Shown here piece after piece: positions 1 to 13,175 of a stretch of DNA of 64,000 nucleotides. The DNA lies in NCBI GenBank assembly GCA_019096065.1, contig JAGUCH010000003.1:2170001-2234000 (forward strand). The letters are read 5' to 3'. How positions within the stretch are numbered: position 1 is the first letter of the stretch; each line of letters opens with the position of its first letter. The stretch comes from Paracyclopina nana (taxonomy: Eukaryota; Arthropoda; Copepoda; Cyclopoida; Cyclopettidae). The translations under genes and the position numbers were made by a program. The notes under the pieces were generated by a model that worked only from the letters and a program-made list of their open reading frames with translations, ran no database searches and was not told the DNA's origin.

Positions 1-132
1 AAAAAAAGCTAGCTCATGCACATTAGAAAAAGCTACTGAATTTATTTGAAGAAAGACATTTATTGCATCCATATAAAACTTTTTGACATTTGGCCGGTTT
101 TGTGTAGATGATCAAATCTTCATTTGTATTAA

Positions 133-623
133 TGTTGTGGCCTGCCCGCTCCCGTTTTTGCCGACAATGGACGTGCAGCTGCCCCTTCACCTCATCGCGC
201 TTGTCTGCTGTTTTTCCGCCAACTCACCGTTTTTCTTTAGTACTGCACAAGAATTCAACAAGGAATAAACCTTTTACTTTTATCTCATGTATTTTTGCTA
301 CTTAGTTAATTTTACATTTATATGAGAACTTTCTTGAGCATTGCTCCATAGCATCTATCCTTGAACCAGAGAGGATTAGCTGCTGCATTCCAGGTCCAGA
401 TGAGGTTTTGGATCTTCACAAGCATTGCTTGTACTTGTCTTTGGCATTGCCAATCTTGATTTCCAATCAGAGTGGTCAATCCATCCATCCAGAGCTTTGG
501 TAGCTTGCCCCTTGCTGGAAAGTAAGAGATAGGTTAGTTAGCATTGCTACTTGTCTTCGCATCGTATCGTGATCATTGTCATCTAACACCGGTTCAAGCC
601 TCGTTGGGTTGCAGAACATATCA
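133..623 (+). repeat. 5' LTR of BEL/Pao element
   Basis: The 491-bp LTR begins TGTTGTGGCC and ends AACATATCA. It contains the poly(A) signal AATAAA at 264-269 and four GCATTGC-centred palindromes (336-346, 418-432, 441-453, 539-549). The copy at 12681-13171 matches at 490 of 491 positions by eye. The promoter is presumably upstream of the AATAAA; I see no clear TATA box. Confidence 0.95.
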
Positions 624-626
624 GTT

Positions 627-644
627 TGGCGCCCAACGTGGGGC
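627..644 (+). promoter_or_regulatory. Primer-binding site, tRNA-Lys(CUU) type
   Basis: TGGCGCCCAACGTGGGGC starts three bases after the LTR. It is the exact complement of the 3' end (with CCA) of animal tRNA-Lys(CUU) as I know that tRNA. First-strand cDNA synthesis would start here. Confidence 0.85.
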
Positions 645-676
645 CCTCGAATCCACCCTAGACGGAGAGTCTTTCT

Positions 677-3600
677 ATGCCACGTAATCGTAAGAACAAG
701 TCCAACTCTGGAGGGAAGAAGAAAGCCGCTGCTGCTGAACCTACCCGGAAGAGTAGACGCAACTTGGGTCAAAGTCCATACGATTATCAGGGTAAAATCA
801 ATCTAGAAATATCTCCATATCATCAAGCCCTTAGGGATCTTCGGCTGGAGAGTGCCAAGGAGTCTGAATCCGACGCGAGAGCTACTCTTTTTCGAGACGT
901 GGCCGCGGAAATCTCTGATCCTGAACAAATTGAAGAAATTATTTCGCTCGTAGAATCTCCTCAAGCTTCACGTTCTAGCCCATCGCACGAATTTCCAAGT
1001 TTTGGAGATAAAGAGATCAGGATGCCCGTTCAACACACCCCACCAAGTCCCCAAGGAGGAGCAGGCTATAATCCGGATCAAACTACATTTCCTGACACTC
1101 CAATGCCGCCTAGTAGGAGGTTCTCTCCTCAGATTCCTGGAGTGGAAGCTCAACAAGGGACATCAAATGCGAACCCTCAGGTTGGTCCCATAGCGCAAGG
1201 CGCTGGCTCGTCGTCCTTCAACGCCTCCACTCCTTTACCAGGAACGAGTGGCATTGCCACTAGGACGATGGCGACTCCCACCAATACCACGACTCAGACT
1301 GTCATCCAGAATCCTGATCAGCGTGGAAACGATCCGAGTCCAAAGGGAATGAGGCCGCCACCCATTCCTCCCATGAATCCACAACCACTGTCGTCAAGAG
1401 ATGAAATGGGATCACAGTCGTCATTGGCGACCTCCGCTTCTGCAATGCAGTCCAGGGGAAAGAATTTTCCAGAAGGAGGACGAGGAAAAGCCACTGGAGG
1501 AAAGAAAGGAGGTCATTCTGAGACAGGATACTTGCCAAAAGGAACAAAAAGCAGGCCCAACTCTGCCAAGAGATCTGGAAAGCAACTTCAAGAAAAGAAG
1601 GATGCAGAGGTAGCCGCTTTCACCCATACTGAATCTCTCCAGAATCTTTTCCAGATCACCAATCCCTTTGTGAGATGGAATCGACAATCTTTCCTTGACA
1701 AGAAAAAGAAGACTTCAAAGGCTGAAGCAAATGAGGTTGTGCAACATCTGAGGTACTACATCAAGGAGTACGAACGCCTTCATGCACTCTACACAGAGGC
1801 TATTCGCATTGCGAATATACAGGAATCCTCAACCTTGTTGACCTCGTATAACAAGAATTACAAGGCATGTCAAGTTCTTCTTCAAGCAGCGAATGAAATT
1901 CTGAGAACTTATGGAACTGCTGGCAATGCTCAGGCCGATGCCCCACTGGAAAACGAAGACGCTGATCCCGACAGCAATGACTTGGAAGAATCACATGAAC
2001 CTCCCAACAACAGTGAGGAAAATTTTCCAACAGCCCGAGTCGAGGTCGACGAGGTTACTGGAGGCTGCCACGTCATGATGAATGATGGTAACTACTATTT
2101 CTTGAATGCTCAACAGGTCAGTGTTGGAGTCACGGCAGAGTGGCTCAACAAGCAGCTCCAGGTTAGGCCTGGCACCTTTGCTTCGGAGGCTGCAATGCAC
2201 CAAAACTCCGCTGGCCATCAACAACAAGTGCGCTCTACCCAACAACGATTCATAGAAGACTCAGCAGGAAGAACTGATGGAGTAACTCACCCAGAGCGCA
2301 CGCAAAGCGGCGCAGCTGGAATTGTTGACGGCTCTTCGCATCGCGAACGGCCCATCGGAACATTGTCAGCTGAGAACAATGTCACGGATGTCGCTGCTCT
2401 CACGGAAGCTGCCATACGATATGGTGGCGTCATCGCAAATCTTCGAGCACATCATGGAACTATGTTACAAGAAATTGAAATTGAATCCCCTATTGCTGAT
2501 TTGATGTCGGACTTGCCACAATATGTTCATGCTTTGCATCAAGCTCGTTCAGCGGCGCAGGCTTTTGAGGAGGCAGGAGGCGGAGTGAACGATCTTGACA
2601 GGCAATACATGGAAAGAGCTGAGCAAACTATTGGTCTCATTCGACAAAAGGCGGAAGACTTGCCAGCCAATGCTCGACCCAATCGACCCCTGCGGGATCC
2701 TCTTTTGGAGCAAGCATCGCTTCTCAACCCGCAACCTCCACAAATTAGGGGCGAAGTAAGGGGAAATGTTTATGTGCCCAGGGGACAGGCCAACGAAGTC
2801 CGCACTTACAATCCTTTTGCAAGCTCGCAGAGGGGCATTTCTGGAGATCATCAACCTCAAGGACCAACTACTTTTCAAAATCGATTTCCTTCTAATCCCA
2901 GGTTGAGCCACGGGGATTCTATTTTCAGACCACGTCAAGCTGGAGGGGTTCAACCCCCAATGGGGGGACTACATAGCAACATTTCCCAGGGAACCTTTAA
3001 CCCCCAAGCCCGCAATGCAGCCGAGGTACGCCTGCATCAAGGACCCTCGAACGCCATCTATCAGGCTCCTGCTTTGTGTTTGGGAAACTCCAATCGCCCC
3101 TCTCAAAACTCTGGTGCTAATCCGATCTACAGCAATGCTGTCACCTCTGGCCCTTACACTGTGGCCTCCCAGCATGCCCCTTCTCTTGCTGGTCCTCAAC
3201 TTCCGCATTACGGATGGCAAGCACCTCATGTTACTGCCCATCAAGCTTATCAACTGGGTTCGCAGGCACAAGGCATACAACCTAATTATAACTATCAAGG
3301 AAGCTTGGCTCATGGCAACTATCAGTTGAATCCACTTGCTGCACCTCAACCGCCTCTGCTCAACCCTCATGGATATCCACAGCAGGTGCAGCCGCAAACG
3401 AGCTATCACTCGTATCAGGGATTCCCTAATTCAATGGCATCATCATCACTGGTTCACAATCAAGCTTATCCAGCCCTTCAAGCAGCAACTGCAATGCATT
3501 TGCCTGCCACAAATACTTTTGGGCATTATCAGGCTCCACATCTTCAAGCTGCAATGCAGCAGCCTGGATTGCCTAACCCGATGGCTCGATACAAGGCCAA

Positions 3601-4747
3601 ACTTCCTCCAGTTAGCATGTGCAGGTTCACAGGGCATGATATCTCCGAGTTTTATGCTTTCAGAGATCAATTCCGCTCTTTCATACATGAGGACGTGACG
3701 ATGCCATGGCCGGAAAAGTACTCCCGTCTCATGGAACTCACTCAGGGTGGGCCCGCAGGAGATTTTGTCAGCAGGCAGCCTCAAACAGAAGCAGGTTACC
3801 TCTACTGTTTAGAGGCCCTTCAAGCTGACTATGGTTGTCCAAAACTGCAAATGGATTGCTTGATAAGCAAACTCATGAATATGTCGCTTCTGGATCATGA
3901 AAATGCCTCATCGGTTATGTCAGCAAAGCTGGCCGTTGGAGACATTTATCGACATGTCACTGCTCATTGGGGCCATCCCGGCATTGCCGCTTCGATGGAT
4001 CTACACGATTCGTATATTTTCAGGTCTCTACCAACGACGGCTGGCACCAGAGCAGACATCGACCAATTTGTGAACGGCAGGAATGACAATTCCAACTCTT
4101 ACTTAAACGGCCCACTCTTTGAAAAATGGTGCAATAAAAAACTTCATCGGCTTAGATCACAATCAATCAAACAACCACCAATAGCCACAAAGCAGATCAG
4201 AAAGAAGCCCACCGTCGCTGTCAACCATTTTGAAAATGCACTTTCAGCTGAAGACTACTTGCCATCCTACTACCAAGAAGAAGAAGACACTTCTGACATG
4301 CCAGGAATATTTCAATTCTCAGCAAAAGGCAACATGGCAAAAGTCTCAGCAGATGACCAAGATCAGAATGAGGTCATCATGGTTCCCAACGAAGAAGGCC
4401 AAGGCTTCACAGTCCTCACAGTGACGAAAGGTGATCAAAAATATTATGTTAAGTGTCCCGAGTGCACTTCCACAGAGCATCGCTTCTTCAACTGTCCTAG
4501 CATATTGGCATTGCCACCCAGGGGACAAGCACTGAAGTGTTTCAAATACAAGGCGTGTTTGCGCTGCATGGCAGGAGCACACAACACCAGGGAGTGCATA
4601 AGAAGCTGGAAATGTGAAAAATGCCAATCGGATAGTCATCACACCAGACTACACGGAGCTTGGGACCACAAAGACAAGAAGGAAAGAGCTCAATCCAGTG
4701 AATCCAAAGGTGCTGCTCCGGCTGTGGAAGTTGGAAGCAGGGGCTAA
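677..4747 (+). CDS. gag: Gag polyprotein of BEL/Pao element
   Basis: A 1356-codon ORF from the first ATG after the primer-binding site. Residues 1-960 are low complexity: basic near the start, then rich in Pro, Gln, Ser and Asn. Residues about 968-1060 resemble the DUF1759 region usual in BEL/Pao Gag (LPPVSMCRFTGHD followed by an FRDQF segment). Near residues 1259-1320 are three zinc knuckles: two CX2CX4HX4C (CPECTSTEHRFFNC, CLRCMAGAHNTREC) and one CX2CX4HX4H. Gag would form the particle and bind element RNA. The protein is about twice the usual BEL Gag length because of the long disordered N-terminal part. The stop is TAA. The pol frame overlaps the 3' end in the +1 frame. Confidence 0.85.
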   Translation: MPRNRKNKSNSGGKKKAAAAEPTRKSRRNLGQSPYDYQGKINLEISPYHQALRDLRLESAKESESDARATLFRDVAAEISDPEQIEEIISLVESPQASRSSPSHEFPSFGDKEIRMPVQHTPPSPQGGAGYNPDQTTFPDTPMPPSRRFSPQIPGVEAQQGTSNANPQVGPIAQGAGSSSFNASTPLPGTSGIATRTMATPTNTTTQTVIQNPDQRGNDPSPKGMRPPPIPPMNPQPLSSRDEMGSQSSLATSASAMQSRGKNFPEGGRGKATGGKKGGHSETGYLPKGTKSRPNSAKRSGKQLQEKKDAEVAAFTHTESLQNLFQITNPFVRWNRQSFLDKKKKTSKAEANEVVQHLRYYIKEYERLHALYTEAIRIANIQESSTLLTSYNKNYKACQVLLQAANEILRTYGTAGNAQADAPLENEDADPDSNDLEESHEPPNNSEENFPTARVEVDEVTGGCHVMMNDGNYYFLNAQQVSVGVTAEWLNKQLQVRPGTFASEAAMHQNSAGHQQQVRSTQQRFIEDSAGRTDGVTHPERTQSGAAGIVDGSSHRERPIGTLSAENNVTDVAALTEAAIRYGGVIANLRAHHGTMLQEIEIESPIADLMSDLPQYVHALHQARSAAQAFEEAGGGVNDLDRQYMERAEQTIGLIRQKAEDLPANARPNRPLRDPLLEQASLLNPQPPQIRGEVRGNVYVPRGQANEVRTYNPFASSQRGISGDHQPQGPTTFQNRFPSNPRLSHGDSIFRPRQAGGVQPPMGGLHSNISQGTFNPQARNAAEVRLHQGPSNAIYQAPALCLGNSNRPSQNSGANPIYSNAVTSGPYTVASQHAPSLAGPQLPHYGWQAPHVTAHQAYQLGSQAQGIQPNYNYQGSLAHGNYQLNPLAAPQPPLLNPHGYPQQVQPQTSYHSYQGFPNSMASSSLVHNQAYPALQAATAMHLPATNTFGHYQAPHLQAAMQQPGLPNPMARYKAKLPPVSMCRFTGHDISEFYAFRDQFRSFIHEDVTMPWPEKYSRLMELTQGGPAGDFVSRQPQTEAGYLYCLEALQADYGCPKLQMDCLISKLMNMSLLDHENASSVMSAKLAVGDIYRHVTAHWGHPGIAASMDLHDSYIFRSLPTTAGTRADIDQFVNGRNDNSNSYLNGPLFEKWCNKKLHRLRSQSIKQPPIATKQIRKKPTVAVNHFENALSAEDYLPSYYQEEEDTSDMPGIFQFSAKGNMAKVSADDQDQNEVIMVPNEEGQGFTVLTVTKGDQKYYVKCPECTSTEHRFFNCPSILALPPRGQALKCFKYKACLRCMAGAHNTRECIRSWKCEKCQSDSHHTRLHGAWDHKDKKERAQSSESKGAAPAVEVGSRG

Positions 4748-7718
4748 ACTGCTCCAAAAACAGGGGGTAAGCATTGCTTCACATAATAATATCTCTTCTA
4801 ACTCAACAGATCAGAGCATTGCTCAGCCCATTGACGTGACTGCAAAAACTGAGCAAAAAGTTGCTCAAGCTGTCAATGCTGCTCCAAACGCATTCTTAGA
4901 CACGGGCGCACAACTTTCATTGATTTCTGAATCTCTTGCAAATAAACTGAAGTTGAATGGAGTCTCTGACGATCAAATCTTAAAGATGATCGCCACAACC
5001 GTAACTGTGACCAGCAATGCTGTGTCACTCAGAGTAAAGTCTGTGAAGGGGGGACCACATCATGATCTTGCATTGCATACGATCGATGAGCTTCCCTCCA
5101 CGGTGCATGTGCCACCTTTGGATCGACTCAAGAAAAAGTTTCAGTTTTTGAAAGACATTGATTTGCCATATTATGCGTCTCCACCTCATCCTGATCTTCT
5201 CATCGGTATAGACTACTACAACTTGATCATGCCAGACCAAGTAGTCCACAAGCAAGAAGGAGAACCCTACATCTATGACTGTCCCCTGGGACGAGTCATC
5301 ACCTACTATACTCCTGAGCAGGTAAAAGGGGCTTCTCAATTTGGGGTCATGCTTGGGACCATTTCTCTGCCAGATGAAGTTGACGTTTCATCACCACCCC
5401 CTCCACCCTGTAAACTCTGCGAAGGAAAAGACATCCCACCTGCCAATGAGCTGCTGCAAGCATTGTGGGAGTATGACGATCCACTAGGACCACCACCTCT
5501 GACCATGCTCAGTGTCAATGACAAACGAGCATTGGACATCCTCACCACCACCATCTCGCAAATCGAAGGAAAGCAATATCAGATGAGTCCGATGTGGAGG
5601 CCTGGCGAACCTTATTTTCTGAACAATCGCTTGGCAGTCATGAAATCTACTGCTGCAGTGGAGAGAAGATTGAGGCTTTTTGACATGCCCACATATGAAA
5701 GAGCCACCAAGGAACTTAAGGAGTGGCTCGACTCTGGTTTCGTCAGGGTACTCGATCCCGAGACAGAAGATTTGGATGATGGCTATTACCTTGATTGGCT
5801 ACTTGTGGAGAGGAAGGACAAACCTTCCATGCCGGTTCGAGTGGTATTTGACGGCTCCAGGAAACATCACGGTAAAAGTTTAAATGATGCTCTTTTACCG
5901 GGACCTAAGTTGCAACGCGACGTATTTGAGATTCTCATCGGGGCTCGTGAAAAACCCATTATTATCGTCACGGACATAAGCAAAATGTTCTTGCGCTTTG
6001 CTCTGGACCCGGCCTCGAGAAAATTCCACAGATTTGTTTGGCAAGGAGTTCATTATGAGGCTGTTTCAGTGGTGTTTGGCACGGCAAGTGCTCCGTGCAT
6101 GGCGAATTTCGCTGTCAAGCACCATATTTCAAAATATCAGGACACTCACCCATTGGGCTATCGTGTCCTCGATAACAGCCTCTACGTTGATGACGTGTTT
6201 GCCTCGGTGGAGGACGTGCAGGAAGGAAGAGAAACTGTCAAGCAGATCCTCGAATTGGGCGAGACCGGGGGCATGCCTTTCAGGAAATGGGGCAGCAATG
6301 TTGCCTCAGTTCTCGACAACATCGACGATGATTTGAAGTTGCCAGGTTTTGCAATCAACTCTGAGAAAGCCGAAGTCACCAAAGCACTGGGAATGTATGT
6401 CGATTGTCAAGGAGACCAAATCATTTTTCAACCACCGAGCTATGAGTCAATGCGCAATGCGCCACTCACTTTAAGGCTGATGGTACAGTACGTTCCTAGA
6501 CTTTTCGATCCACTCGGTCTGCTCAATCCTCTGGTCCTGAAAGGGAAGATCCTGATACAGCGAGTCATGGCCTTAAAGACTGTTTTTGATGTTGATTGGG
6601 ACACTGTGTTTGATATGGTTGATTCCGCTGAAATAGACTCAATTTCCCATGAGTGGAAACTTTATGTCGAGGAAGTTGCAAAAATTGAACTCTTCAGGAT
6701 TCCTCGCGCAATGCGCCATAAGATCGCCAAGAGAATTTCTCTCCACATCTTTTCTGACGCAAGTGAAGCTGCAAAAGGAGCTTGCGCCTATGTTAGAGTC
6801 CAATATGAGCAAGGCAATTACGATTGCACTCTGCTCGCCTCGAGATTGAAGATTGCTCATTTGGGTGAATCCAGGTCGATGCCGGAGATGGAGTTAGATG
6901 GGTGTGTCATGGGAGCAGATCTCTGTGTGGACATACTCAGGTCCTTGGAGAAAATAGATGAGGTACATCTTTGGACAGATTCGCAATGCGTTCTGACCTG
7001 GATCTCCAAGCCTGCCTGTAAATACAAAAAGTATGTCGCCCGTCGAGTCACCATGATTGTCGAAAAGACGAGCAATTTTCATTGGCATCATGTGCCTGGT
7101 CGGGTTAACTCGGCTGATTTAATCACTCGAGGCTGCAGCATTGCTGACCTCGCCGACTCAGATCTTTGGATCCACGGCCCACGATTTCTGAGGGGACCTG
7201 ATGAGCAGTTTCCAAAATGGACTCCAAAGATCACCGATGATGAGAGGGCCGCCCTGGAGAAATATGAAAAAAGCGGACTTCACGCACGCAGGGCAAAGAA
7301 GGTAGTGAAAAAGATAGTATTGATCAACCATTTTTACAAGCTAGGAGGAGTGCAAGTCCCAAAACACCTTAAACCCACTGACAACATCCTTGCCTTTTGG
7401 CACTACATGAGGGCCAACTCCTGCTTCATAAATCTCAGCCGCTTCAGCAGCTGGAATCGTGCGGTGCGTGTTCTGGCCCATGCTCGTCGTTTTGGACTCC
7501 TTATTATCTATGGTGAACACGCGATGGGAGAGGGCGAACTGAACAAAGAAGAGCTCTTGCAGGCAGAAGCTAGCATTGCTAGCTGGCTTCAACAAAAAGA
7601 GTATGCCAAGGAGCTTGACTATTTTCTTGAAAGGGCGATCTGGCCAAAAGGTAGTCGCCTTGCGATCATTGATCCCGTCCTTTATCCCCATGGGAATTGC
7701 GCACCAAAGGAAGGTTAG
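4614..7718 (+). CDS. pol: Pol part 1: aspartic protease, reverse transcriptase, RNase H
   Basis: Long open frame in the +1 phase relative to gag, overlapping it by at least 134 nt; the 5' end given is the first possible start (GTG), not a demonstrated one. The protease motif FLDTGAQLSLIS is near 4890-4930. The Pao-type reverse transcriptase follows, with VVFDGSRKHHGKSLND in the palm and the catalytic YVDD at 6183-6194. RNase H has the acidic motifs FSDAS (about 6750) and LWTDSQ (about 6970). It makes cDNA from element RNA in the particle. The frame stops at TAG 7716-7718, just before the integrase region, which is unusual since BEL/Pao pol is normally one reading frame through integrase. No canonical slippery heptamer is visible at either junction. 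Confidence 0.85.
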   Translation: MKNANRIVITPDYTELGTTKTRRKELNPVNPKVLLRLWKLEAGAKLLQKQGVSIASHNNISSNSTDQSIAQPIDVTAKTEQKVAQAVNAAPNAFLDTGAQLSLISESLANKLKLNGVSDDQILKMIATTVTVTSNAVSLRVKSVKGGPHHDLALHTIDELPSTVHVPPLDRLKKKFQFLKDIDLPYYASPPHPDLLIGIDYYNLIMPDQVVHKQEGEPYIYDCPLGRVITYYTPEQVKGASQFGVMLGTISLPDEVDVSSPPPPPCKLCEGKDIPPANELLQALWEYDDPLGPPPLTMLSVNDKRALDILTTTISQIEGKQYQMSPMWRPGEPYFLNNRLAVMKSTAAVERRLRLFDMPTYERATKELKEWLDSGFVRVLDPETEDLDDGYYLDWLLVERKDKPSMPVRVVFDGSRKHHGKSLNDALLPGPKLQRDVFEILIGAREKPIIIVTDISKMFLRFALDPASRKFHRFVWQGVHYEAVSVVFGTASAPCMANFAVKHHISKYQDTHPLGYRVLDNSLYVDDVFASVEDVQEGRETVKQILELGETGGMPFRKWGSNVASVLDNIDDDLKLPGFAINSEKAEVTKALGMYVDCQGDQIIFQPPSYESMRNAPLTLRLMVQYVPRLFDPLGLLNPLVLKGKILIQRVMALKTVFDVDWDTVFDMVDSAEIDSISHEWKLYVEEVAKIELFRIPRAMRHKIAKRISLHIFSDASEAAKGACAYVRVQYEQGNYDCTLLASRLKIAHLGESRSMPEMELDGCVMGADLCVDILRSLEKIDEVHLWTDSQCVLTWISKPACKYKKYVARRVTMIVEKTSNFHWHHVPGRVNSADLITRGCSIADLADSDLWIHGPRFLRGPDEQFPKWTPKITDDERAALEKYEKSGLHARRAKKVVKKIVLINHFYKLGGVQVPKHLKPTDNILAFWHYMRANSCFINLSRFSSWNRAVRVLAHARRFGLLIIYGEHAMGEGELNKEELLQAEASIASWLQQKEYAKELDYFLERAIWPKGSRLAIIDPVLYPHGNCAPKEG

Positions 7719-9118
7719 ACTCCTCTCCTGTGCAATGGATAGGAAAAAGACAACTCATTATTCCTGGTGAGGGAAGGAAAATGGTTCTCGAAGATGTTCA
7801 TCAGCAACTGGGACACGGACTTGGTAGATTAAGGTACGTCAGCGAAGCACAATTGAAATACTGCATTCCTGGCGCAAAGCGCATTATGACCGACATCCTT
7901 AACGGATGCGCAAAGTGTGCAAGGCACAAATTGACGGCATTGCCTCCTCACATGGGGCTGTTGCCACCTCACGCTGTACCCTTGACAGAATTTCTGCCTT
8001 TTCGTTATACCTCGTTCGACATGTGCGGGCCCTTTACCACCCAATTCAACAGATCTGAGTATTCGATGTACGTCGTCGTTTTCGTCTGCCTACACTCAAA
8101 AGCTATCCATTGCGAAGAGTTGTATGACATGAGCACAGATAGCCTCATGCAAGCCCTTGAAATGTTTGTGGCCAGAAGGGGCTGCCCTCATACCTTGCGC
8201 AGCGACAATGGCAGCAATTTCATAGGCTGTAGAGAACTCATAAGGACGAACCCAAGATATCAGGAACTGCTCAACTGTTTGGGGCGTATTGATTGGGATC
8301 AACTGAGGCGATATGGGGGAAGAATTGGAATAGTTCAATGGATGCTTTCACAGCCTTTCTCCCCGAACTTCAATGGTTTATTGGAAGCAGCTGTCAAGAT
8401 CTTCAAGAAAGCTCTCTACAGAGAATTTATTGGAAAGGTGACCAACATCGAAGATTTTAGGTACATTGTAATAAAATCTGAAGGATTCATTAACGGCCGC
8501 CCCATTGGGGAAATCGAGGGCCAATTTCTAACCCCCAATCACTTTCTCACCCGTGGTCCTCCGGGAGAGGTTCTTCCTGTCATCGATCCTGATCAGTTGA
8601 AAACCTTGGAATCCAGGTATCGCACGATCGAAACTGCATTGCAGTCTCTTTGGGATTATTGGACCAAGGAGCTCGTTGAGCATCTGAGGAAGATGCCAAT
8701 TTGGCAGCACCACCGAAAAACCTTGAAAGAAGGCGACGTCGTGGCAGTGCTGGAAAAGCCTCATTTTCATAAGCGATACTGCTGGCCAATGGGGGTTGTA
8801 GAAAGGGCTATGAGTGATCAAGATGGAGAGTGCAGACGGGCCATTGTATGCATGATTCCACCGGGAGAAGTCGAGCCTGTTTTCTATGAAAAATCTACCC
8901 AATTTCTCATTCCCCTGGCAGTTTTCCGTGACTCTGATGAGCTCATAGTATTTAACAAGCCCGGCGAAGGCAATCAGCCACACCTGGAACATCTGCAAAA
9001 CGAAGAAGATTGGCTCAGCCTGGAGAGATATGTCACTGCAATGCAGGTTATGCCTCCACACCCTATAGATCCTTATCCCATACTCTCAAGCAGAACTGTG
9101 GATAAAGGCGACATATAA
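7673..9118 (+). CDS. int: Pol part 2: integrase
   Basis: This frame is open from 7673 to TAA at 9118, in the -1 phase relative to the RT frame and overlapping it by 46 nt. It has no obvious ATG start, so expression from the RT frame by frameshifting, or a recent frame break, is likely. The zinc-binding HHCC module is at about 7797-7925 (VHQQLGH, then NGCAKC). The DDE core aspartates are at 8018-8020 and 8204-8206 (SDNGSNF) and the glutamate at 8384-8386. A C-terminal domain with Trp and basic residues follows. It inserts the cDNA into the genome. The GRL turn that normally precedes the HHCC region lies right at the frame junction, so little protein is lost between the two frames. Confidence 0.85.
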   Translation, partial: SRPLSPWELRTKGRLDSSPVQWIGKRQLIIPGEGRKMVLEDVHQQLGHGLGRLRYVSEAQLKYCIPGAKRIMTDILNGCAKCARHKLTALPPHMGLLPPHAVPLTEFLPFRYTSFDMCGPFTTQFNRSEYSMYVVVFVCLHSKAIHCEELYDMSTDSLMQALEMFVARRGCPHTLRSDNGSNFIGCRELIRTNPRYQELLNCLGRIDWDQLRRYGGRIGIVQWMLSQPFSPNFNGLLEAAVKIFKKALYREFIGKVTNIEDFRYIVIKSEGFINGRPIGEIEGQFLTPNHFLTRGPPGEVLPVIDPDQLKTLESRYRTIETALQSLWDYWTKELVEHLRKMPIWQHHRKTLKEGDVVAVLEKPHFHKRYCWPMGVVERAMSDQDGECRRAIVCMIPPGEVEPVFYEKSTQFLIPLAVFRDSDELIVFNKPGEGNQPHLEHLQNEEDWLSLERYVTAMQVMPPHPIDPYPILSSRTVDKGDI

Positions 9119-9166
9119 TCATCCTTGATAAATTATTTACCCAATCACTATAGCGCATTGCGCAAC

Positions 9167-9187
9167 AAAAAAAAAAAAAAAAAAAAA
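9167..9187 (+). repeat. A21 tract after integrase
   Basis: An uninterrupted run of 21 A residues 48 nt after the integrase stop. An AATAAA lies about 84 nt further on (9271-9276). It marks the boundary between the pol genes and the accessory region. Confidence 0.9.
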
Positions 9188-9346
9188 CTCTTTTGTGAAT
9201 CACTTGAGATGGAGGTTTGCGTTATCATTCTGCTTGCATCACTGTCACGTTCCCCTGAAAAATTCTGTTCAATAAAACTTTTAGTTCAGAAACCAATTAT
9301 CCTCCGCAATGCGGCGTGCGCAAGTCTGGTGAGGTTTTGAGATTAC

Positions 9347-11050
9347 ATGAAAATCTTTCCCGTCACTAAGGTTGCTCAATTTTTAACGAGCAAAAGCACC
9401 ATGTCGAAAAAACTAGTTGAGCTGACTGCAGTTTTCCGTTTCCTCCCTTTCGTTAGTAGTGAAAGTAAAAAATTCGGTGAAAAAGCACCAACAGTGAAAG
9501 TGCGCAAGATGTCCTTCAAGCCCAAGGGGGAAGACGAGGAAAGTCTTCTTGACGTGCCCTTCGAAGGTCAGTCTGGACAAACGGCGAATATCACGCTAAT
9601 GGCTGAAGGCCCGACGACGACAACATTGACGGGAGTTTTGCAAGAATTTGACGCTCTAAATCCGACTCCCTCGGGTAGCATTGCTACCAATAATACAGGT
9701 AATAATGAGTCTAGCATTGCTACTCACTCCGGCACCCCCCCTCGCATTGCGACCTCTGAAGGTGAAGCCATGGAAGTCTCTCACGCCTCCCCGAAATATG
9801 CACCATCGGAAATGTCTTTGGGATCACCTCACAATGCTCGAGAAGGCAGCATCTCGGTGAGCATTCTCGGATCAGAGAGTGGAGACGAGCTAAATCTCCA
9901 TCCTGACTCTGAGGCGGATTTTGGACTGCTGGAAGAAGATGAAAATCCGGGAGAGCTCCCCTTTGACGGCGGGCGCGGGTCGACTGACAAAGAATCCTCA
10001 GCCAACTCCTCGAGAAGTGCACCCTCTTCGAGGAGCTCATCCACTCACAGTCCCAAAGAACGAGAGAGACATCATCGAAGATCGAGGTCATCTCCATCAA
10101 AGTCTCGCTCGTCGTCCCGTCGATCAGCACCCCTGCAGAGGTCGAACCTTTCTGTTTTCAAAATGCCTAGGCTTCCCAGGGTTGAGCGTCGGGAAGAGGC
10201 AAGACGTGATCGAGAAGTAGCTAGGAGCTCGGTGTTTTCGAGGTTGGGGAGTCGTCCTGAGCTCAGTAAGAAAGAAGAAGAAGAAAAGGAAGAAATGGTG
10301 TGGCCGGAGGTTGATTTTGGAAATGTTTTCGAACCATGGGATCGCAGCGCGAGCATTTGTCGCGATGCCGAGGGAAAAATAAGATCAAATAATTTGCATC
10401 GTCTCTTTTCAGGACTCGGTCTTCCCTCCAAGTTCGAGGAAAGAAGAGGAATGCTCGCCGACCATCTTCGAGTCCTGGAAGTCACGATGAGGGCCAAAAC
10501 TCTCCTGTTCAAGGACGAGGCTGAGGCCATGCCTGGAGATGCCATCCTGGTTCATTATTGTGATCCAAATGTGGCTTTTTTGGGACATTCTTTGTCTTAT
10601 GGCGAGCCTGACAAGGACGACCTCCGCGATGCCGGCCTTCGTGCCACTGATCCGGTTGCAGCCGCAAGGGCTGATCACTCCCGCATTGCGGCTCTCAGGG
10701 CAGGAGTGCCACCCCTGGACGTTATGGCGGGATGTCATCCCAACCTGATGCACATCTACGATGAGTACCAGCTGCGCTGCATTTTCTCTCAGCCGCCCAT
10801 TCACCCGCTTAGAAGACTCCCTCTTGCTGGCTCGGCTTTGGAGGAGGCCCAACTTGTCTGGGAGGCCAGAAAGAGGCTCGCCAAGATCCCATTGCGGCCT
10901 CCACCACCTCTCAGCGATGGTGCTGCCACCGCACCCACCTGCCCGAAAGTGAAAGCTCTGATGGACAATCACAACTGCAATGCAGAATGTCTCGCCAACA
11001 ATTGTGCCTTGCACAAGATAAGCGAGGGCCCTCACGACGCGCAAGTTTGA
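9347..11050 (+). CDS. Accessory ORF A: acidic/SR-rich protein of unknown function
   Basis: A 567-codon ORF from ATG 9347 to TGA 11048-11050, between integrase and the 3' LTR. I do not recognise the family. Residues about 80-220 are Ser/Thr/Glu-rich and acidic. Residues about 220-290 are an Arg-Ser block (RRSRSSPSKSRSSSRRS), then a charged segment. The C-terminal half looks globular and ends with a Cys/His cluster (HNCNAECLANNCALH). There is no signal peptide or membrane helix, so it is not env-like. The same frame stays open after the TGA into the next ORF. Five GCAWTGC palindromes lie within it, like those in pol. It could be a second nucleic-acid-binding or Gag-like protein; function unknown. 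Confidence 0.7.
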   Translation: MKIFPVTKVAQFLTSKSTMSKKLVELTAVFRFLPFVSSESKKFGEKAPTVKVRKMSFKPKGEDEESLLDVPFEGQSGQTANITLMAEGPTTTTLTGVLQEFDALNPTPSGSIATNNTGNNESSIATHSGTPPRIATSEGEAMEVSHASPKYAPSEMSLGSPHNAREGSISVSILGSESGDELNLHPDSEADFGLLEEDENPGELPFDGGRGSTDKESSANSSRSAPSSRSSSTHSPKERERHHRRSRSSPSKSRSSSRRSAPLQRSNLSVFKMPRLPRVERREEARRDREVARSSVFSRLGSRPELSKKEEEEKEEMVWPEVDFGNVFEPWDRSASICRDAEGKIRSNNLHRLFSGLGLPSKFEERRGMLADHLRVLEVTMRAKTLLFKDEAEAMPGDAILVHYCDPNVAFLGHSLSYGEPDKDDLRDAGLRATDPVAAARADHSRIAALRAGVPPLDVMAGCHPNLMHIYDEYQLRCIFSQPPIHPLRRLPLAGSALEEAQLVWEARKRLAKIPLRPPPPLSDGAATAPTCPKVKALMDNHNCNAECLANNCALHKISEGPHDAQV

Positions 11051-11077
11051 GGGGAAAAAGGTGAGCAGTGCCACTCC

Positions 11078-12067
11078 GTGTTCAGCCTTCGGGATGCCTT
11101 GGAGGCCATCAAGCTGGCAGCAGGCCCTTTTGACTGCAGGTCCACCGGCGGCAAGCGAAATGTGCTCGTCCTCGAAAACGACGCGCAGTGGCCTGAGCTG
11201 GAGGCTCTTCTGGAGGGCAAGTACTCCTTTTTCACCGACATCGAGGCCTGGACTGCTATGACAAGCCACATGTACAGTTGGACGGTGCCGGCCTTGGAGC
11301 GAGAAAAGCTCACCACGGACGGGAAACCCAACGAGGGCTGCTTCACATTGTTGGGAGTGGGCAACCTCACAGGCACCCTGTTGATCATTCAATGCAATTA
11401 TGGAGGCATTACTCAACAGTATTTTGGCGGTGCCAAGGTACCACAGAGGATCATTGATCTTCTGGAGTCCTCCAGCATCAGGGTCGCCGGCTTCAACATT
11501 GGAGAAGAAAAGAGGTACAACGATATCGGCATTGAAATCCGCGCCAAGTGCGAGGCCAACCTCGTGGGCATTGCCCTTTTTCCACAAGAAGGAGTCAGAC
11601 CCGCCGCAATGAAGACCAACGTCACCTTCGTCGCCGATAAGCTGGGCTCGGAATCCGTGCCCATCATGGTGACAGCCTCAAGGGGCGGGAGCAGTCTCAC
11701 CGTGCAGCCTCCAAGAAAGGTCTTCTATTACAAAAGAGACGTAGATGACTATAGCGTGTCCTACAAGAAATGGAGCTCTCAGATGCAAATGTTTGTCTGG
11801 ATCAACCACGCCATCGCTGCGGCCTCTCTGGTGACCCTTGCTGTTCGAGGTCTGCTGCGACACAGTGCAGGCCTTGAGGCCGACGTAATACGTCACATGC
11901 ACTTCTACATGGACCGGATTCGGAATAAAAGAAGCTCAGGTCAACTGGCAAAAACTGAGGCCGAAATGCGCCCCTTCAACAAGAAGGAGCTCCCCAGCAC
12001 ATCCTCGCATTGCGAGGACGGGGAGCCAGCCTTATGGATGTGGTTGCAGGAAAACTCTGCTACCTGA
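11078..12067 (+). CDS. Accessory ORF B: possible DEDD 3'-5' exonuclease-like protein
   Basis: In the same frame as ORF A, after a single TGA; the frame is open from 11051. The start used is GTG 11078, so a start is not proven. Residues about 25-170 follow the order of a WRN/EXD-type exonuclease fold. FFTDIEAW resembles the DxE motif I. A hydrophobic strand with LLIIQCNYGG matches the usual strand before the helix. LLESSSIRVAGFNIGEE matches the region before motif II. A helix near FVWINHAIAAASL sits where YxxxD is expected. The motif II and III aspartates appear replaced by E and H, so the protein may bind rather than cut nucleic acid. The call is from pattern only. After its TGA (12065-12067) the frame remains open to 12274. 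Confidence 0.4.
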   Translation: MFSLRDALEAIKLAAGPFDCRSTGGKRNVLVLENDAQWPELEALLEGKYSFFTDIEAWTAMTSHMYSWTVPALEREKLTTDGKPNEGCFTLLGVGNLTGTLLIIQCNYGGITQQYFGGAKVPQRIIDLLESSSIRVAGFNIGEEKRYNDIGIEIRAKCEANLVGIALFPQEGVRPAAMKTNVTFVADKLGSESVPIMVTASRGGSSLTVQPPRKVFYYKRDVDDYSVSYKKWSSQMQMFVWINHAIAAASLVTLAVRGLLRHSAGLEADVIRHMHFYMDRIRNKRSSGQLAKTEAEMRPFNKKELPSTSSHCEDGEPALWMWLQENSAT

Positions 12068-12224
12068 ATCAACGGAGTGGTAGCCACCCGCACCTACCTG
12101 CGCAAGAGCTCCAGGCGTTATGCTTTGGACCTCCATCTCGTCTCCAAAAAGCTGGCCTCTGACTTCATGGCGGTGGTGAGGAAAAGCCCTGGAAAGATGA
12201 CCTGGCACGACATCATAGACATAG

Positions 12225-12650
12225 TCTATCACATGGGGCGCGCCCCATTTCTGTCGTCGGTGTGGGTCTTTTGACCATGAAATTGGGGCCTGCAATGCAG
12301 GCCCAGTGAGGTGCATTTACCCCCTCTGCGGCTCGCTCGCTCACACAGTTATGGTCTGCGAGCTCCTCATGGAAAGGTGTGAGCTTTGCCAAGAGCTCGG
12401 TCATCGTGCTGCTCACCACTCCCTCGACGGATCTGGAGGCAAGCCCTGGATGGTGCTTCTGGAAGAAGCCGCTCTGTGCAGCCTCCTCAGCATCAAAGGC
12501 CCCCAGTTCCACGAGGGCTTCAAGCTGCGTCTGACTCGTGATGAAGACAAGGTCATGCTTGTCCCTTACAACAGAATCGTCCAAGAGCTCAACATCACGC
12601 GATTTGTGTTGGACACCCGCTTCGTGGCCTTCACCGGCAAGTGGCCTTGA
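12225..12650 (+). CDS. Accessory ORF C: zinc-knuckle protein fragment
   Basis: Open frame, shifted +1 from ORF B's frame, ending TGA 12648-12650 just before the 3' LTR. It begins with three closely spaced zinc knuckles: CRRCGSFDHEIGAC (CX2CX4HX4C), a CX4CX4HX4C variant, and CELCQELGHRAAHH (CX2CX4HX4H). The first knuckle lies upstream of any start in this frame, so the segment is probably the C-terminal part of a protein begun in the preceding frame. After the knuckles come about 80 residues of unknown type. CCHC knuckles bind single-stranded nucleic acid and are typical of Gag, so the element carries a second knuckle set. A 19-bp palindrome (12286-12304) lies between knuckles. Confidence 0.5.
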   Translation, partial: SITWGAPHFCRRCGSFDHEIGACNAGPVRCIYPLCGSLAHTVMVCELLMERCELCQELGHRAAHHSLDGSGGKPWMVLLEEAALCSLLSIKGPQFHEGFKLRLTRDEDKVMLVPYNRIVQELNITRFVLDTRFVAFTGKWP

Positions 12651-12668
12651 AGGCTCTCATCGTGGTCC

Positions 12669-12680
12669 AAGGGGGGACCC
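12669..12680 (+). promoter_or_regulatory. Probable polypurine tract
   Basis: AAGGGGGGA followed by CCC lies directly before the TG of the 3' LTR, where the plus-strand primer is expected. The purine run is short (9 nt). Confidence 0.6.
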
Positions 12681-13171
12681 TGTTGTGGCCTGCCCGCTCC
12701 CGTTTTTGCCGACAATGGACGTGCAGCTGCCCCTTCACCTCATCGCGCTTGTCTGCTGTTTTTCCGCCAACTCACCGTTTTTCTTTAGTACTGCACAAGA
12801 ATTCAACAAGGAATAAACCTTTTACTTTTATCTCATGTATTTTTGCTACTTAGTTAATTTTACATTTATATGAGAACTTTCTTGAGCATTGCTCCATAGC
12901 ATCTATCCTTGAACCAGAGAGGATTAGCTGCTGCATTCCAGGTCCAGATGAGGTTTTGGATCTTCACAAGCATTGCTTGTACTTGTCTTTGGCATTGCCA
13001 ATCTTGATTTCCAATCAGAGTGGTCAATCCATCCATCCAGAGCTTTGGTAGCTTGCCCCTTGCTGGAAAGTAAGAGATAGGTTAGTTAGCATTGCTACTT
13101 GTCTTCGCATCGTATCGCGATCATTGTCATCTAACACCGGTTCAAGCCTCGTTGGGTTGCAGAACATATCA
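12681..13171 (+). repeat. 3' LTR of BEL/Pao element
   Basis: Near-identical copy of the 5' LTR (one difference, C at 13118). The same AATAAA lies at 12812-12817 and would direct polyadenylation of the element RNA. The four palindromes recur at 12884-12894, 12966-12980, 12989-13001 and 13087-13097. Confidence 0.95.
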
Positions 13172-13175
13172 TTAA

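Follow-up and report, generated by a model that had tools for sequence, protein, structure and literature searches.

Why does a retrotransposon repeat one short palindrome dozens of times along its length, in coding regions and in its terminal repeats alike? The question is raised by a stretch of 64,000 nucleotides from the genome of the copepod Paracyclopina nana (contig JAGUCH010000003.1, positions 2,170,001 to 2,234,000; hereafter the window), which contains a 13.0-kb BEL/Pao long terminal repeat (LTR) retrotransposon at positions 133-13171. Between window positions 338 and 13095 this element carries 41 copies of the heptamer GCAWTGC, 37 of them distinct, as four sites in the LTR occur twice. 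At least one further base pair is complementary in 39 of the 41, 34 lie inside perfect 11-bp palindromes, and 11 distinct sites reach 13-19 bp; 22 of the distinct cores are T-centred and 15 A-centred. These counts reproduce those of an initial annotation of the window, which had proposed a strand-symmetric DNA feature similar to the HIP1 palindrome of cyanobacteria or to DNA-uptake tags and, as an alternative, a hairpin closed by a C(AUU)G or C(AAU)G triloop. The alternative fits our data, once widened to a code of loops that differ from clade to clade.

Neither chance nor codon usage accounts for this abundance. A first-order Markov model of the whole element gave, over 300 runs, an average of 3.3 cores (maximum 11, against 41 observed) and 0.25 11-bp palindromes (maximum 3, against 34 observed). 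In 1000 codon-preserving shuffles of five open reading frame (ORF) pieces, we obtained 5.1 cores (maximum 12, against 30) and 0.43 palindromes (maximum 3, against 23). The excess therefore persists under the control that the initial annotation had called for, which rules out both causes and upholds its view that protein selection cannot explain the sites; its chance figure of 1.6 cores was too low, but the large excess stands. All three codon phases are indeed occupied, as it had claimed, but unevenly: among 30 hairpins with AUU or AAU loops (hereafter AWU) in four of the five ORFs, that of the integrase being left out, the first loop base falls at codon positions 1, 2 and 3 in 21, 2 and 7 cases.

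Nor is the motif host-wide, as far as the remaining 50.8 kb of the window can tell: it holds 8 cores, none in an 11-bp palindrome, and only five triloops of any kind framed by GC, none of them AWU, against 44 in 12.5 kb of the element. Comparison with the whole genome, likewise suggested earlier, gives one core per 5.4 kb (17,027 in 92.0 Mb) against one per 0.32 kb in the element. The genome-wide number is about twice the estimate of ~9,000 from the base composition of the window, in the rest of which extended arms are absent.

The repeated unit is best described as a predicted 11-nt mini-hairpin, in which a 4-bp Watson-Crick stem, usually NNGC..GCNN, closes an AUU or AAU triloop. This description comes from 235 A- or T-centred cores in six elements, that of the window (W) and five others (A-E) that are 68-85% identical to it in pol and are represented by separate pieces. 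Outside the heptamer, the first pair is Watson-Crick in 224 of the 235 cores and the second in 209 (89%), while the third drops to 103 (44%), more than the 25% that chance would give. Constraint therefore covers 11 nucleotides, four base pairs and the three bases of the loop, and leaves the identity of the two outer pairs free: all four pair types occur there, which confirms that the arms are variable yet self-complementary. C- or G-centred cores number only nine in the six elements, one of them with an extended arm, and 8.75% of distinct AUU/AAU triplets lie within such a hairpin, compared with 0.59% in the rest of the window. W has 12 further 11-nt palindromes with an AWT centre and a different inner stem, and the lineage formed by E and three related loci (L026-L028) uses AUG and CAU loops beside AUU and AAU. 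What is kept is therefore loop and stem rather than the palindromic heptamer. The hairpins extend into the LTR and the 3' ORFs.

In this genome, a search with pol in which 66 of 271 candidates were scored yielded at least 70 matches and 30 loci of 4.4-5 kb. The 12 loci nearest to the window (L017-L028) have 9-19 cores each, whereas the other 18, 58-65% identical, have 0-3 each and mostly carry a different triloop. We ran codon-preserving shuffles (60 each) on 22 of the 30 loci (L019-L022, L032, L037, L040 and L044 were left out). AWU hairpins number 10-20 in the clade of the window (8 loci), against 0.6-1.4 in shuffles; a sister clade (9 loci) has 12-21 hairpins with CAG, CAU or CAA loops (CA[G/U/A]), against 0.7-1.8; and one locus (L045) has 12 with CAC, against 0.5. 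Each code is at or modestly above background elsewhere, with 0-4 AWU hairpins in 14 other loci (0.5-1.0 in shuffles) and 1-5 CA[G/U/A] hairpins in the window's clade (0.8-1.3). The latter loops reach 7 in L042 and L043 (1.3-1.5 in shuffles) and 3-4 in L036 and L038 (1.0-1.5). GAAA tetraloops provide a weaker signal in L036-L038 and L042-L043 (4-8 against 0.25-0.38), the copies being related; L044 has two and was not flagged. In the gag region of a family farther away (48% identity in pol) there are four GAC loops against 0.65, and a relative predicted beforehand to share this loop has five in frame against 0.39, with no in-frame AWU or CA[G/U/A]. Its GC-framed GAC hairpins are fewer than predicted (two in 4.4 kb), and not all GAC sites are independent, since both relatives have an identical catgc..gcatg stem. 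Close relatives thus keep the motif while other clades have other loops, strongly so for CAG/CAU/CAA and CAC, more weakly for GAC and GAAA; the E and L026-L028 lineage is possibly intermediate between the AWU and CA[G/U/A] codes. Of 10 loci examined for loop length, 7 have an excess of three-base loops (z 3.3-6.7), that of the window among them; the exceptions are L036, L038 and L043 (z 0.6-0.8). Other lengths show no consistent excess, though L038 has z 3.7 for length 4 (GAAA) and 3.4 for length 5. We found no triloop excess in 5.0 kb of a family with a short gag (16 against ~20) nor in two 3.3-kb Ty3-type loci of this genome (13 against ~13 each). Yet another BEL/Pao family (L059, C4:5326407-5327960) has three GTC triloops against 0.15 expected in a pol piece of 1.55 kb, too short for a judgement.

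If the signal were a double-stranded palindrome bound by a dimeric protein of host or element, or a tag of the HIP1 or uptake type, both strands should be equally used and a tag should be spread over the host genome. HIP1 is a short palindrome of high density, as here, and in the window's clade the motif is both palindromic and nearly strand-symmetric (140 T-centred and 95 A-centred of 235 cores). However, even in this clade AUU loops outnumber AAU loops by 150 to 97, and in the sister clade (ten loci) CAG, CAU and CAA loops number 72, 33 and 23, against 13, 4 and 3 for their reverse complements (128 against 20), with the non-palindromic CAU and CAA among the sense-specific loops. The near symmetry of the window's clade arises because AUU and AAU are each other's reverse complement, hence the symmetry reported by the initial annotation. 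Moreover, variable yet complementary arms are not expected from the half-site preference of a dimer, and the rest of the window, 50.8 kb of host DNA examined for arms, has the core without them. HIP1 is a fixed, double-stranded sequence found throughout its host genome, whereas the present array is clade-specific, arm-variable and coded by its loops. Sense-specific loops, together with loop identity that differs among clades, lead us to reject a strand-symmetric DNA palindrome, and we consider any reading of the motif as double-stranded DNA highly improbable. Loops specific to the sense strand mean that the signal is read as a single strand, either sense RNA or one strand of complementary DNA (cDNA); it is probably RNA.

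We propose, at about an even chance, that these dispersed sense-strand triloop hairpins are a multivalent signal for an RNA-binding protein encoded by the element, most likely Gag, and that they serve packaging. The hairpins would sit in the sense strand, most likely of the genomic RNA, and the element would maintain ~40 of them at flexible positions; their joint binding would gather, condense and package the element's own RNA. In related families the loop would have been replaced, presumably along with the protein that reads it, giving each family its own password. Copy number, flexible positions, fixed loop and frame, presence in both coding sequence and LTRs, and loops that differ among clades all fit a multivalent protein-binding signal on RNA, and a reader encoded by the element would explain why co-resident families differ in their loops. 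Gag is the first candidate because it is the protein that selects genomic RNA and because a model of dispersed packaging stem-loops has been published for other viruses. How retrotransposons pick their own RNA from that of the cell is poorly understood, and dispersed packaging signals are debated, their motifs usually being weak; here the excess is large enough for the motif to be seen in the sequence by itself. In the packaging model for RNA viruses such as MS2 and for the hepatitis B pregenomic RNA, multiple stem-loops with a common coat-protein motif and otherwise varying sequence are dispersed along the genome (PMC6281560). The element shares the many short stem-loops along its length and the common loop motif; it differs in being an LTR retrotransposon, in a signal evident from sequence alone and in a loop that changes among co-resident relatives, with coat or Gag binding being putative here. 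More tentatively, and at somewhat under an even chance, co-resident families may run a self/non-self RNA code, each displaying its own triloop ~40 times to be read by its own Gag, to the exclusion of relatives, parasites and host RNA; this code would evolve by loop swaps on a kept GC-loop-GC frame (AWU, CAG/CAU/CAA, GAC) and could jump to a GAAA tetraloop. Natural relatives with different loops are ready-made specificity controls, and if Gag does read the loops, dozens of copies in one genome would allow one to follow how a protein and an RNA code of 40 sites evolve together.

The reader might instead belong to the host. Proteins of the LIN-41/TRIM-NHL type could bind the hairpins and steer the RNA to germ cells or control its stability or translation, which we consider unlikely. 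LIN-41 recognises short Watson-Crick stems capped by a loop of exactly three bases, in several copies per RNA, and many sites may offset low affinity, all of which is consistent with the array, but it calls for closure by U-A and for a purine as the third loop base (PMC5908797). CAG and CAA, in the sister clade, do end in the preferred purine, and 7 of 59 complete stems there close with U-A (43 with C-G). Of the 46 complete stems in the window's clade, 36 close with C-G and none with U-A, AUU and AAU end in U, and the hairpins are spread over the whole element. Co-resident clades with different loops would also require several host readers. As to Roquin, its loops follow a pyrimidine-purine-pyrimidine rule that AUU and AAU do not fit. 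The Roquin constitutive decay element is likewise a protein-read triloop hairpin, but it is a decay signal of host mRNA (PMC5603727).

Single-stranded cDNA hairpins that act in reverse transcription, by pausing, strand transfer, plus-strand initiation or nucleocapsid binding of the cDNA, are a further alternative, to which we give a rather low probability. Strict Watson-Crick pairing with no preference for G-U would be natural for DNA, sense polarity suits one cDNA strand as well as it suits RNA, and sequence cannot separate the two; on the other side, we know of no step in the life of a retroelement that needs ~40 dispersed cDNA hairpins. Lastly, the hairpins may be a mutational by-product, if template switching at quasi-palindromes during reverse transcription perfected imperfect ones. 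This process would yield strict Watson-Crick arms of any sequence, but it leaves unexplained the specificity of loop and inner pair, the change from clade to clade and the fall in pairing after four pairs (from 89% to 44%), and the two Ty3-type loci have no excess; we regard it as very unlikely.

For the proposal of an RNA signal read by Gag, folding of ~120 nt per site gives a mean predicted pairing probability of 0.62 for 200 signal hairpins, against 0.31 for 390 chance triloops on 4-bp stems from these elements. Several observations nevertheless weigh against it. Of the 390 other triloops, the 85 that share the GC inner pairs reach 0.55, close to the signal hairpins, so that the stem frame accounts for most of the stability. 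Variants with one G-U pair exceed their control by about as much as those with A-C or another mismatch, which would be unexpected in RNA unless so short a stem (4 bp) may not bear a wobble. The hairpins are irregularly spaced (coefficient of variation 0.82), the 1.95-kb pol piece of the GAC family has only one GAC loop and thus no excess, and all data are from one genome. Only three hairpin columns are common to the window's and the sister clade (~0.7 expected), and shared column-pairs show two Watson-Crick types in 3 of 30 cases in the former and 1 of 48 in the latter, with mismatches in 7 of 30 and 16 of 48. The initial annotation had asked whether arms covary in aligned copies: doubly changed pairs are Watson-Crick above controls in the window's clade (0.44 against 0.24-0.29), but the effect is modest, and in the sister clade the value of 0.37 equals that of random paired positions (0.37; slid control 0.20-0.23). 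The evidence for pairing is strongest across sites and not within aligned sites.

Hairpins turn over mostly by base substitution in place, as judged from aligned copies, rather than by gain or loss as units, a possibility raised earlier; insertion of a mini-element is accordingly not supported. One site, at column 954, may be an exception: the stretch that contains it is gapped in the copies aligned there. At column 2727, one of the three common columns, the hairpin is kept in three clades with the loop AAU, CAG/CAA or CAA, one clade having a compensated stem pair. Mapped on a 24-row pol tree, the loop codes require 6 changes, the minimum for seven labels, as compared with 13.0 for shuffled labels, a comparison to which near-copies contribute and whose labels were set after the loops had been seen. 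The window's clade forms one side of a branch with support 76/99, and the sister CA[G/U/A] group needs two changes; two long branches leave the deepest part of the tree unsure.

Candidate readers within the element are the N-terminal extension of gag, its zinc-knuckle-like cluster, ORF4, part of which is rich in arginine and serine, and ORF5. Within the N-terminal extension, one stretch (W 285-409) is 22-27% identical between gags of the window's clade and one from the sister clade. As a further point against an element-encoded reader, neither Pfam nor PDB scans revealed a known RNA-binding domain, the zinc-knuckle-like cluster being seen by eye only. Pfam scans of gag, ORF4 and ORF5 at E <= 10 gave only DUF1759 and one chance-level match, and PDB searches with the same three proteins one chance-level match. 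ORF5 has, by eye, a faint resemblance to DEDD 3'-5' exonucleases, with catalytic residues missing; no database match backs it. It had no homologue at E <= 1 among 5743 candidates, and its structure predicted from the single sequence was discarded (mean predicted local distance difference test score 33.7). In a sister-clade element (L062, C2:10888700-10893500), the counterparts of ORF4 and ORF5 are merged in a third ORF of 1291 amino acids, which ends in a second zinc-knuckle-like cluster, again seen by eye.

The element has two LTRs with a single difference (position 570), flanked on both sides by a short TTAA target-site duplication. Peptidase_A17, rve, DUF5641 and DUF1759 score above the Pfam cut-offs, and RVT_1 reaches 28.3 bits, just under 29.6. 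With its LTRs, Peptidase_A17, DUF1759, DUF1758, integrase and DUF5641 it resembles BEL/Pao elements in general; its hairpin array, ORF4 and ORF5 are without a described counterpart that we could find, for the array in the open-access literature searched, whose long result lists were covered in part. Relatives of its pol in databases are at most 36% identical among the matches listed (best 120 of 179), the named ones being mostly from arthropods. A search of the genome for COX1 found none, and HSP70 has full-length database matches of up to 90% among the 120 of 7993 listed. All features are given in Table 1.

Table 1. Features of the BEL/Pao element and its hairpins, in window coordinates (hairpins as stem-LOOP-stem, in DNA letters)
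Feature	Positions	Strand	Remark
TTAA target-site copy	129..132		Second copy 13172-13175; from sequence
5' LTR	133..623	+	TG...CA ends, 4 hairpins inside; LTR-LTR comparison
Gag-like ORF, 1356 amino acids	677..4747	+	Long N-terminal extension, DUF1759, zinc-knuckle-like cysteine cluster (by eye)
Protease / reverse transcriptase / Peptidase_A17 frame	4614..7718	+	
Integrase frame	7697..9118	+	Integrase_H2C2, rve, DUF5641
ORF4, 567 amino acids	9347..11050	+	Arginine/serine-rich stretch, without Pfam family
ORF5, 329 amino acids	11078..12067	+	Without Pfam family; 49-84% identity across elements A-E
3' LTR	12681..13171	+	Same 4 hairpins; LTR-LTR comparison
gagc-ATT-gctc	336..346	+	LTR
aagc-ATT-gctt	420..430	+	LTR
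tggc-ATT-gcca	442..452	+	LTR
tagc-ATT-gcta	539..549	+	LTR
tggc-ATT-gcca	1249..1259	+	
ctgc-AAT-gcag	1440..1450	+	
tcgc-ATT-gcga	1804..1814	+	
cccc-AAT-gggg	2955..2965	+	
cagc-AAT-gctg	3130..3140	+	
aggg-ATT-ccct	3417..3427	+	
ctgc-AAT-gcag	3549..3559	+	
cggc-ATT-gccg	3979..3989	+	
tggc-ATT-gcca	4506..4516	+	
aagc-ATT-gctt	4769..4779	+	
gagc-ATT-gctc	4814..4824	+	
cagc-AAT-gctg	5012..5022	+	
tgtc-AAT-gaca	5513..5523	+	
tgag-ATT-ctca	5927..5937	+	
gcga-ATT-tcgc	6102..6112	+	
gcgc-AAT-gcgc	6452..6462	+	
gcgc-AAT-gcgc	6706..6716	+	
gaga-ATT-tctc	6731..6741	+	
cagc-ATT-gctg	7136..7146	+	
tagc-ATT-gcta	7571..7581	+	
gatc-ATT-gatc	7664..7674	+	
caga-ATT-tctg	7986..7996	+	
cccc-ATT-gggg	8500..8510	+	
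ctgc-ATT-gcag	8634..8644	+	
gcca-ATT-tggc	8695..8705	+	
ctgc-AAT-gcag	9036..9046	+	
gcgc-ATT-gcgc	9153..9163	+	
ccgc-AAT-gcgg	9304..9314	+	
tagc-ATT-gcta	9676..9686	+	
tagc-ATT-gcta	9712..9722	+	
tcgc-ATT-gcga	9742..9752	+	
ccgc-ATT-gcgg	10681..10691	+	
ctgc-AAT-gcag	10975..10985	+	
gatc-ATT-gatc	11449..11459	+	
gggc-ATT-gccc	11566..11576	+	
acgt-AAT-acgt	11883..11893	+	
tcgc-ATT-gcga	12005..12015	+	
ctgc-AAT-gcag	12290..12300	+	
gagc-ATT-gctc	12884..12894	+	3' LTR
aagc-ATT-gctt	12968..12978	+	3' LTR
tggc-ATT-gcca	12990..13000	+	3' LTR
tagc-ATT-gcta	13087..13097	+	3' LTR

The gag and pol regions of the window copy (677-7718) lie in two overlapping frames, and several relatives have one open frame of ~2900-3000 amino acids; despite its near-identical LTRs, the copy is probably broken between the two frames. 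Elsewhere in the genome, at C7:788556-789483, we observed an LTR copy that is 97-98% identical and interrupted by ~485 bases. The 92-Mb genome also contains at least 150 RT_RNaseH_2 matches (best 150 of 429), many of them equal-scoring and with long open frames. We take this family to be typical of Ty3-type elements, and the genome is thus presumably rich in young LTR elements.

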